From a virus, in IMG/VR virus record IMGVR_UViG_3300034283_001708, positions 1-23,351 of that record: DNA of 23,351 bases; one strand, given 5' to 3'. This document shows, piece by piece, positions 3,775-22,681 of the stretch (positions within the stretch are counted from its first letter, which is position 1; each line of letters starts with the position of its first letter). Position numbers and translations under genes: made by a program. The notes under the pieces were generated by a model, which saw only the letters and a list, made by a program, of their open reading frames with translations, was not told the DNA's origin and made no database searches.

Positions 3775-3996
3775 ATGTCAGTCAATGAAGATTTTGTAGG
3801 AAGGCAATTAGCCTGCGCTTGGGATTTGGTCAGCATATCAAGGCAAAAAATTGCAGAATTGCAAACGGAAATCCAGGTTCAACGGCAGGAAATCTGGCTC
3901 CAAATGCAATGCGTAAATGTCCTAACAGCCAGACTAAAAGAACGGGAAATTCGCTGGGCAAGCATGGGAGAAAATGAGGTGGCAAATGAATCATGA
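3775..3996 (+). CDS. Small coiled-coil protein (73 aa)
   Basis: A strong GGAGG site lies about eight bases before ATG 3775. Residues about 15-60 are a continuous helix rich in Gln, Glu and Arg (SRQKIAELQTEIQVQRQE), most likely a coiled coil. The end of the gene overlaps the CsrA-like gene by 11 bases and provides its ribosome site, so the two are translationally coupled. It may be a small oligomeric regulator or scaffold; there is no firm family. Confidence 0.6.
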   Translation: MSVNEDFVGRQLACAWDLVSISRQKIAELQTEIQVQRQEIWLQMQCVNVLTARLKEREIRWASMGENEVANES

Positions 3997-4189
3997 TGCA
4001 ATTATTAGTCAGGGCGGTTTGGTCTTGAGTCGCAACATTGGGGAAGGCATCACTATTGTGGACCGCAGGACAGGTGACATCCTCCACATCCGGGTTGTTG
4101 GCGTGACGGGAAAACGCGCCCAACTACGACTGGTGGCAGAGCGACAGGATTACATCATTATGCGTGATGAACATCAAAGGAGCGAATGA
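3986..4189 (+). CDS. csrA-like: CsrA-like RNA-binding translational regulator
   Basis: ATG 3986 (GAGGTGG just upstream) gives 67 residues, close to the usual 60-70 for CsrA. The CsrA pattern is visible: LVLSRNIGEGITI (residues 12-24) corresponds to the N-terminal LxLxRxxGExxxI strand; ILHIRVVGVTGKRAQLRLVA (32-51) corresponds to the central V-x-G strands; IIMRDE (57-62) supplies the conserved Arg and Glu that contact GGA RNA. CsrA dimers bind GGA motifs over ribosome sites and block or promote translation. A short insertion (RRTGD, 27-31) lies between strands 2 and 3, and ten extra residues precede the fold. The gene sits in the early block before the recombination genes, so it could retune host or phage mRNA use. 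Confidence 0.8.
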   Translation: MNHDAIISQGGLVLSRNIGEGITIVDRRTGDILHIRVVGVTGKRAQLRLVAERQDYIIMRDEHQRSE

Positions 4190-6908: not shown

Positions 6909-7781
6909 ATGAAATCTGGAGCGATGACAAGTGTTAAGTTAATGCGATTAAAAAGGGCACTAGGATTGACTCAGTATCAGGCAGTTGGATTGCTGGAATG
7001 CCTTTGGCATTTTACGGCACATAATACGCCAGATGGTGGAATTGGACGATACACCGATGATGACATTGCCGCGGTATTGGAATGGGAGAATTCCGCCACA
7101 GAATTGATTGGGGCTTTGATTGAATCGGGTTGGATTGACCGCCACCAGGATGGATCCCTTTGGATTCATGACTGGCTTGACCATTGCCCAACATGGGTTA
7201 AGGGTGTGGCCGCAAACAAGATTGCCAGAGAAAAAAATGTGTGCGGTACTAAGTGCGGTACTAAGTACCCAACTAAGTCCCCAACTAAGTCGGATACTAA
7301 GTCCCATACTAAGTACCCAACTAAGTCCGCAACTAGTGTGGCAACTACCTTACCTTACCTTCCCTTACCTTCCCTTACCAAAACAGAAATACATTTGCCC
7401 GGACCAGAGGTCACGGGCCTGCCGCGTCCGGAAAATCCAAATGGGGAAATCTTGACAGCTCCGCTAGCGGATGGGACCACCTGGACGATTACCCAACCAA
7501 TGCTCGAGGATTGGACTAGGAGTTTTCCAGGCCTCGAGGTCCGATCCCAAATCCTGGGCGCTATCGCATGGCTCGAGGCAAACCCAAAAAAGCGAAAAAC
7601 GGCCAAAGGAATGCCAAGGTTCATCACCTCCTGGCTTCTGCGCACCGTTTCCCGGCCCGTAAAGGCACCGCCAAGCCACGATCTCTCCCAAATTGGGTCA
7701 GAGGTCGGATTTGAAAAGATCGGCGGTCCTGCGCCATTTCTGGAAAGATTGGCAAATCTTGAATTGGAGGTGATGAAATGA
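6909..7781 (+). CDS. Replication initiator, lambda O-like, with winged-helix domain and iteron-encoded linker
   Basis: The 290-residue protein has an N-terminal winged helix-turn-helix layout (residues 1-95: MRLKRALGLTQYQAVGLL, RYTDDDIAAVLEWENSA, GWIDRHQDGSLWIHDWL), like phage replisome organisers. Residues about 113-147 are a low-complexity linker repeating T-K-S/Y/C-P/G/D/H/A, encoded by a 12-bp tandem array. After a Pro/Leu segment, a C-terminal domain (from about 195) contains LEDWTRSFPGLEV and MPRFITSWLLR, resembling the C-terminal part of phage initiators that recruit helicase or loader. In lambda the O protein likewise binds iterons located within its own gene. Function by architecture: origin recognition. 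Confidence 0.7.
   Translation: MKSGAMTSVKLMRLKRALGLTQYQAVGLLECLWHFTAHNTPDGGIGRYTDDDIAAVLEWENSATELIGALIESGWIDRHQDGSLWIHDWLDHCPTWVKGVAANKIAREKNVCGTKCGTKYPTKSPTKSDTKSHTKYPTKSATSVATTLPYLPLPSLTKTEIHLPGPEVTGLPRPENPNGEILTAPLADGTTWTITQPMLEDWTRSFPGLEVRSQILGAIAWLEANPKKRKTAKGMPRFITSWLLRTVSRPVKAPPSHDLSQIGSEVGFEKIGGPAPFLERLANLELEVMK
7248..7350. repeat. ori: Iteron array: 8-9 copies of a 12-bp repeat, predicted replication origin
   Basis: The core ACTAAGT occurs exactly every 12 bases at 7248, 7260, 7272, 7284, 7296, 7308 and 7320. Degenerate copies follow at 7332 (ACTAGT) and 7344 (ACTAC). The core has dyad form ACT-A-AGT. A pyrimidine-rich tract of CCTTA/CCTTC pentamers follows directly (about 7347-7380). 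Regular iterons inside an initiator gene match the lambda ori arrangement. Confidence 0.75.
7347..7380 (+). repeat. Pyrimidine-rich pentamer repeat after the iterons
   Basis: Repeating ACCTT/CCCTT pentamers form a stretch almost free of G. In the initiator it codes for a Leu/Pro-rich linker (LPYLPLPSL). In DNA terms it is a strand-asymmetric tract beside the iterons, where duplex opening might start, although it is not A/T-rich as in lambda. Confidence 0.6.
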
Positions 7782-8353
7782 ACTGGGCGCAACAGCACGC
7801 GGCGATATTTGGCCACAGGTCCGCGGATTGGACAGAAACCTATCGCATCTGGCACCGTCTCTGGAGTCTCGAGGGATACACCCCATCGGATCTGGTGTCA
7901 GCCGTTACCGCGGTGAGCAGAAGGAAGAAGCCACCCAACTTTGTGAGCGAACATTTTAGCGCCCTATCTGAAGAACTGCGCGAATTGCGGATTCAATCCC
8001 TGGCGAAAAAGGTTGAGGCTATCAACGACACCAGGGGTGTTTGCACCTGTTGCGGCAATACGGGGCATATCGTCGTACCACATCACAACAGTTGGAAGGA
8101 TGGCAAATGGACCCGGAATCTGCCGCCACATGAGGGCTATACCATGGCTGTTATTTGCCACATGTGCCGAATTGGCGAACATCGCAATTTAAGGGGAACC
8201 AGGTTAAGTGAATATGAATTGCAGCACCCAACTTGGCGGTCTGAAATGCGGCAATGGGACGAAATCCAAAAGCAGAGAACCGCGGTAGCTGGTCATAATA
8301 AATTCCGAATTGATTCTTATTCCGTCAACATCAAAAGGAAGGGCGACGAATGA
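7778..8353 (+). CDS. Replication accessory protein with zinc knuckle, possible helicase loader
   Basis: ATG 7778 overlaps the initiator stop (ATGA). The 191-residue protein has an N-terminal helical region (WTETYRIWHRLWSLEGYT, then SDLVSAVTAVSRRKKPPNFV) resembling the start of phage loader or DnaB-interacting proteins. A probable zinc site follows, made of CTCC (C89, C92) and CHMC (C127, C130). The tail is basic. Coming straight after an O-like initiator, where lambda has P, it is likely to bring a host helicase to the origin. No Walker motif is present, so it is not itself a helicase. Confidence is high for the zinc site, moderate for the role. Confidence 0.5.
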   Translation: MNWAQQHAAIFGHRSADWTETYRIWHRLWSLEGYTPSDLVSAVTAVSRRKKPPNFVSEHFSALSEELRELRIQSLAKKVEAINDTRGVCTCCGNTGHIVVPHHNSWKDGKWTRNLPPHEGYTMAVICHMCRIGEHRNLRGTRLSEYELQHPTWRSEMRQWDEIQKQRTAVAGHNKFRIDSYSVNIKRKGDE

Positions 8354-21869: not shown

Positions 21870-22385
21870 ATGACATTGAGCCTAACCAGATCCCTTACAG
21901 TTCAAGGGACATTGACTAATGACAGCACCATTTCCATTACCACGGATGCGGTAACAAGTGGAAGCAATTCCTTCCCCGCACTAAGCAGAACTATTACCGA
22001 TGGCACAGGTGCTGGGCAATGCAACAAATGGTACAGGGCATACCGAACCCTTACCGCGGGTTCAGCAGATAACCTGGATTTGGCTGGATCCCTCCTGGAT
22101 CCCTTTGGAAACACCCTGACATTTACTGGCATCAAATACATTGCAGTAGCGTTGATCAGCGCCAGCGCAAATGGAACCAATAAATTGGTGCTGGGCAATG
22201 CCACAAATCCATTTGTTGGGCCACTAAGTTCCGCAGGCACCATCGACATTTTTGACAGCCTGGAACTTTATCATCCTGGAGCATCGGGTTGGAGCGTTAC
22301 CGCAGGAACCGCGGACATCCTCAAAATTAACAACCCTGGTGCCGCATCTGTCACCTATTGCATTCTTATTGCAGGCAATGCGTAA
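21870..22385 (+). CDS. Beta-rich virion protein (171 aa)
   Basis: AGGAGG lies before ATG 21870. The product is rich in Thr, Ser, Gly and Asn (SLTRSLTVQGTLTNDSTISI, then KLVLGNATNPFVGPL and GWSVTAGTADILKINNPGA), typical of phage beta-sandwich proteins on tails or capsids. Together with the genes at 21468 and 22704 it forms a group of small beta proteins interrupted by the HNH gene. Exact role unknown. Confidence 0.6.
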   Translation: MTLSLTRSLTVQGTLTNDSTISITTDAVTSGSNSFPALSRTITDGTGAGQCNKWYRAYRTLTAGSADNLDLAGSLLDPFGNTLTFTGIKYIAVALISASANGTNKLVLGNATNPFVGPLSSAGTIDIFDSLELYHPGASGWSVTAGTADILKINNPGAASVTYCILIAGNA

Positions 22386-22387
22386 GC

Positions 22388-22681
22388 ATGGTTCAGCGCA
22401 GGAACATCCATAGGAATCCAGGCCCTAAGCGCAGGGAAGCGCCCAGGGATCTTTCCACATCGGAAAGGGGATACGACCACACTTGGCAAAAACTTAGGAA
22501 ATGGAAATTGGCAACAGACCCATTCTGCGCTAGTTGCGGGAATGGCGCAAATCAAGTGGACCACATAAGACCAATAAATGATGGAGGTGCTAGGCTTGAT
22601 CCAAACAACCTCCAAAGCCTTTGCATTTCCTGTCACAGCAAAAAAACGGCAATAGACAAAGCCAACAGAAAACAAGTATAA
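22388..22681 (+). CDS. HNH endonuclease
   Basis: ATG 22388 (97 residues) follows the previous stop by two bases. The basic lead (MVQRRNIHRNPGPKRRE) is followed by RGYDHTWQKLRKWKL and the HNH core: C47-x2-C50, VDHIRPINDGG (D58, H59), NNLQSLC (N74), CISCH (C79-x2-C82, H83). Free-standing HNH enzymes of this type often work with terminase in DNA cutting and packaging, but usually lie beside terS. Here it is among tail genes, about 9.9 kb from terS on the circle. It could also be a homing-type insertion. Confidence 0.85.
   Translation: MVQRRNIHRNPGPKRREAPRDLSTSERGYDHTWQKLRKWKLATDPFCASCGNGANQVDHIRPINDGGARLDPNNLQSLCISCHSKKTAIDKANRKQV

Follow-up and report, generated by a model that had tools for sequence, protein, structure and literature searches.

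A probable phage replication origin of short dyad iterons and a C-rich stepped tract inside an initiator gene

The sequence analysed here (the window), 23,351 bases long, is an entire virus record and may represent only part of the phage. It very probably carries a phage replication origin within the gene that encodes the initiator, in which an array of iterons would be bound by the N-terminal domain of the encoded protein and is joined by a C-rich tract. An in-gene iteron origin had been put forward as an interpretation in the first-pass annotation, and it is supported by the gene family, by the position of the array in the linker and by the comparison with relatives. The data directly support the array, the gene family, the domain layout, the conservation of the core at the DNA level and the recurrence of a two-part anatomy; the features are collected in Table 1.

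Table 1. Features of the initiator gene and of the putative origin, in window coordinates.
Feature	Coordinates	Strand	Basis
Gene for the replication initiator (290 aa; starts with ATG)	6909..7781	+	PHROGs profile matches
Winged-helix-like N-terminal domain, aa 1-112; presumed to bind the iterons	6909..7244	+	AlphaFold2
Linker, aa 113-180, predicted disordered, holds iterons and tract	7245..7448	+	AlphaFold2
Iteron core 1, ACTAAGT	7248..7254	+	
Iteron core 2, ACTAAGT	7260..7266	+	
Iteron core 3, ACTAAGT	7272..7278	+	
Iteron core 4, ACTAAGT	7284..7290	+	
Iteron core 5, ACTAAGT	7296..7302	+	
Iteron core 6, ACTAAGT	7308..7314	+	
Iteron core 7, ACTAAGT	7320..7326	+	
Two degenerate units, ACTAGTG (7332) and ACTACCT (7344), 12-bp register kept	7332..7350	+	
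C-rich strand-asymmetric tract, CC every 5 nt (7348, 7353 ... 7378)	7346..7379	+	Tandem repeat, period 5 and 10
Confidently folded C-terminal domain, aa 181-250	7449..7658	+	Block-mean pLDDT about 86-96

Seven perfect copies of ACTAAGT follow one another on the + strand of the window between 7248 and 7326 at a step of exactly 12 bp, and together with the two degenerate units their coordinates agree with the array first annotated at 7248-7350. The motif occurs only once more in the window, at 22223; 1.0 +/- 1.0 copies are expected by chance, and a total of eight was reached in 0/100 shuffles. Tandem Repeats Finder delimits the array as 7246-7335 and reports a separate 5/10-bp repeat at 7346-7379. 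The array lies in frame with the open reading frame 6909-7781, and the Thr-Lys repeat linker that it had been said to encode is found in the translation, CGTK-CGTK-YPTK-SPTK-SDTK-SHTK-YPTK, with TK in 7/7 units. In the window Thr is encoded by ACT in 16% of cases and Lys by AAG in 31%, so that seven ACT and seven AAG codons would be rare under codon usage alone, yet this is no proof, because tandem duplication could yield them. Because the cores are dyads, either strand of 7240-7340 folds more stably than shuffled sequence does (z -3.5 and -4.3).

The N-terminal domain of the protein matches the PHROGs profiles phrog_9474 (replication initiation protein, E 7.3e-20, residues 7-103), a match that places it in PHROG 9474, and phrog_13246 (replisome organizer, E 1.8e-10); phrogs 9474, 13246, 2447, 3926 and 2509 are the only ones matched by the initiator. 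Searches with the protein gave no match in Pfam (E 0.1), nothing useful in NCBIfam, no relative among profiles of solved structures and none in the genome contigs scanned; its two close relatives share 92% and 87% amino acid identity with it. A full-length AlphaFold2 model was built on 46 sequences, and the block-mean pLDDT of the linker is about 44-62, lying below 50 across most of its length. Modeled alone, the N-terminal domain (pLDDT 89, pTM 0.80) consists of a helix-turn-helix (HTH) with a beta wing, the helices being accompanied by a hairpin of residues 76-78 and 84-86. Its matches in the viral structure library BFVD include primosomal protein 1 and a replisome organizer, at TM 0.78-0.82; those in the PDB are weak, many being winged-helix regulators and none falling below E 0.001, and include the Rep entries 4pta and 5kbj (E 0.2, TM about 0.4). 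The phrog_9474 match and the HTH/beta-wing model bear out the earlier description of the gene as coding for a winged-helix initiator. In a tblastn search, query residues 169-257 match gp42 of phiRgIBDN1, annotated as 'replisome organizer' (E 1e-9), and the C-terminal domain is presumed to contact a helicase loader or primase.

Other observations concern neighbouring genes and related loci. An open reading frame that overlaps the end of the initiator gene (7778-8353, +) encodes a 191 aa protein with CxxC pairs, for which no family match above noise was obtained in Pfam or PHROGs; it is a candidate for the loader or primase partner. The initiators of the homologous loci L076 to L153 seem to differ in their C-terminal domains despite similar N-terminal domains, which suggests domain shuffling at the origin-bearing linker. 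Elsewhere in the window, a small open reading frame (3974-4189, +) resembles CsrA just below the curated cut-off (PF02599, E 1e-4) and may be a phage-encoded relative of this post-transcriptional regulator, and an HNH endonuclease gene is present at 22358-22681 on the + strand (PF01844, E 2e-10).

The relationship between the array and the residues that it encodes was analyzed in 23 units, taken from the window and from the two relatives closest to it. All six bases of the ACT-N-AGT dyad (A1, C2, T3, A5, G6 and T7) are invariant in 23/23 units; the sole variable core base is the central base 4, either A or G, which changes Lys to Glu, and the wobble positions of the codons for Thr and Lys/Glu are unchanged throughout, although tandem copying can mimic part of this fixity. 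Beyond these close relatives, L078, with 51% identity in the N-terminal domain, reads ACTAAGT as CTA AGT (Leu-Ser) where the window reads ACT AAG (Thr-Lys), ACTCAGT of L134 is read in the third frame, and ACCTAGT of L076 would give a stop if read in the frame of the window; ACT-N(1-2)-AGT is thereby found in all three reading frames among more distant cousins. Relative to the rest of the same loci, ACT-N1-AGT is enriched 22-fold and ACT-N2-AGT 16-fold in the linkers, ranking first and second among 320 trinucleotide dyads and occurring in all three codon phases. On these comparisons the linker DNA sites are conserved independently of the encoded residues. The expectation set out with the first description, that relatives would keep the DNA core while the residues vary, holds in all the units compared, and the cousins even change the frame. 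A Mantel test of N-terminal domain identity against array k-mer similarity was set aside as uninformative (r 0.31, with r 0.35 for adjacent coding DNA), and it does not separate site recognition from shared ancestry.

The spacing of the repeats was surveyed in 180-nt linker segments of 72 non-redundant homologues and in 1537 equal segments of neighbouring genes. Periods of 10, 11, 13 or 14 bp are present in 26/72 linkers compared to 0/1537 control segments, and such periods are beyond explanation by protein repeats; examples are CTTGTCAACCA-type units with a period of 11 bp in the linker of Ruminococcus phage phiRgIBDN1, CCAGTACCCTACT with 13 bp in L103 and GCAACCCAAGGTCA with 14 bp in L108. 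A period of 12 occurs in 24/72 linkers and 11/1537 control segments, an excess that may partly reflect the low complexity of linkers, since the controls are neighbouring genes and not disordered linkers of other proteins; the non-triplet periods and the 5-nt tract are immune to this objection. Roughly 30-40% of the 72 homologues have no clear array by the array detector, 26/72 falling below the control 99th percentile in one version and 31/72 below the threshold in a later one. A period that is a multiple of three and in frame, as originally pointed out, is thus correct for the window array and does not extend to the family as a rule, because many homologues use 10, 11, 13 or 14 bp.

A second element, absent from the first-pass annotation, is the tract immediately downstream of the iterons in which CC recurs every 5 nt. 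On the coding strand, runs of seven or more CC dinucleotides spaced 5 or 6 nt apart are found in 25/55 family linkers compared to 0/514 controls, and chains of GG, representing the reverse strand, in 1/55 linkers. When only 5-nt steps are counted, chains of at least four occur in 18/55 linkers compared to 2/514 controls, with CC as the top dinucleotide; such steps cannot be a protein repeat. C (41%) and A (30%) predominate in the family tracts, which have almost no structure as single strands, with a median 45-mer folding energy of -0.5 compared to -4.5 kcal/mol in random control windows; for the tract of the window, too, no single-strand structure is predicted. Its position corresponds to that of the AT-rich opening region in lambda and SPP1, but no such AT-rich region was found here, as 7346-7379 has about 50% G+C. 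We infer that the tract of the window is a strand-opening or single-strand loading element. It is further conceivable, at rather less than even odds, that a CC tract with steps of 5-6 nt, placing G-rich GGTAAGGTAAGG on the opposite strand, is the opening element of a large tailed-phage family, following dyad iterons in a linker whose coding is free in frame and period; it would act as a single-strand recognition element in the manner of DnaA-trios or the ATCA repeats of RctB, or else as a former of G-rich structure.

In the proposed mechanism, winged-helix-like N-terminal domains would bind the 12-bp-spaced ACT-N-AGT iterons in the linker-coding DNA, and their binding along the array would bend or strain it. 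The strained array would open the adjacent C-rich 5-nt tract, or mark it for strand loading, such that one strand becomes available and the C-terminal domain may bring the helicase loader or primase. Iteron binding, opening, recruitment and the start of replication at this locus are putative steps. Two features of in-gene iteron origins are observed here: the initiator gene itself contains the repeated sites, and these are conserved at the DNA level apart from the encoded residues. The inflection of GC skew that had been predicted near 7.3 kb did not materialize, the window showing neither an inflection nor a sign change there.

In-gene origins have been described in a few model phages and plasmids. 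In lambda, the iterons lie in the middle of the O initiator gene with the opening region adjoining (PMC7466680), the same layout as in the window; however, lambda has four longer iterons and an AT-rich opening region, in contrast to the short 12-bp units and C-rich tract described here, and no match of the window protein to O-like PHROGs profiles was found. An O-like initiator gene of another virus (L004:4482-5210, phrog_678, E 8e-15) contains GGGTGGTA-type repeats and, downstream of these, three ACTAAGT units 12 bp apart. The oriL of SPP1 lies within gene 38, encoding gp38, and comprises direct repeats and an unwinding element (PMC6316719); these repeats are likewise inside the initiator gene, but the unwinding element is AT-rich and a second origin is located elsewhere, and the likeness considered here is one of layout. 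The replisome organizers ORF13 of TP901-1 and Rep2009 of Tuc2009 bind direct repeats in their own genes that act as the origin (PMC8965321), and these lactococcal P335 phages are again compared to the window by layout. A parallel in domain arrangement is drawn with Rep of plasmid pSK41, in which a wHTH N-terminal domain binds boxes in the DNA of the central linker, the C-terminal domain contacts the replication machinery (primase), and the linker encoded by the origin is dispensable as protein (PMC5703833); the window protein has a winged-helix-like N-terminal domain, and repeated sites lie in its linker-coding DNA, although pSK41 has four Rep boxes and the window seven or more 12-bp units, no RepA_N domain was detected in the window protein (Pfam, E 0.1), and its fold matches to 4pta and 5kbj are weak (TM about 0.4). 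The putative window origin would resemble those of lambda O, SPP1, TP901-1 and pSK41 in its working, and membership of the RepA_N or O family is unsupported. For the tract, there are precedents in DnaA-trios and in the ATCA repeats of RctB, both of them short motifs repeated beside the sites of an initiator and read as single strand (PMC10316083, PMC10797057). On V. cholerae chromosome II, RctB sites adjoin 5-nt (G/A)ATCA repeats in the opening region, which the initiator binds single-stranded (PMC10797057, PMC10316083); as proposed for the window, initiator sites stand beside a short 5-nt repeated element, but that origin is not in-gene and RctB belongs to a different initiator family.

A raw 12-bp repeat proves nothing by itself, and the case rests on gene context and relatives. 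Scanning for 12-bp-spaced ACTAAGT returned 51 bacterial and 13 viral stretches, many of which are simply minisatellites within spacers or unrelated genes. Among viral contigs the permuted dyad AGTAACT is far commoner at this spacing (83 tandem stretches, compared to 13 for ACTAAGT and 4 for CATAATG), and for this reason the repeat pattern by itself is given no weight here. Arbitrary 7-mers in such arrays are not rare in viral contigs. These counts bear on the explanation of the array as a coding minisatellite, in which slippage expanded a Thr-Lys linker repeat, any selection acts on the protein and the DNA repeat is a by-product. Consistent with it are 12-bp arrays with unrelated cores elsewhere, a period divisible by three, a copy number that differs between close relatives, and CCAGAG repeats in the linkers of some homologues, which fit a Pro-Glu protein repeat. 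Nevertheless, it is improbable given the non-triplet periods of so many linkers, the identical core in all three frames, and the restriction of core variation to a single base at which changes are non-synonymous, the wobble bases being fixed.

A second alternative is that the array is an operator: the initiator or another regulator would bind it and shut the early operon, by autoregulation or as a transcription roadblock, with the origin elsewhere. Any HTH protein could bind repeated dyads, and GC skew does not indicate the array as an origin; however, the array is mid-gene with nothing above chance in a promoter scan nearby, and comparable arrays recur here in initiator genes with the strand-asymmetric tract directly after, as in known in-gene origins, making this function very unlikely. 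Plasmid iterons serve both replication start and copy control, and the array could by the same token be an incompatibility or copy-control platform that titrates the initiator rather than a start site. Such a role is highly improbable for a single array beside a tract suited to strand opening, and titration is more a need of plasmids than of phages.

With an in-gene replication origin as the preferred reading, what is new in comparison to the open-licence literature is the use of short dyad iterons whose reading frame and period shift within a broad family of phages, together with the C-rich stepped tract. One core read in three frames makes an unusually clean case for a coding linker that doubles as regulatory DNA, and a tract that is not AT-rich makes the mode of origin opening by initiators directly testable. 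In dozens of uncultivated phages the anatomy of iterons followed by a C-rich 5/6-nt tract is readable from sequence directly, so that origins and initiator-site pairs become predictable in metagenomes.
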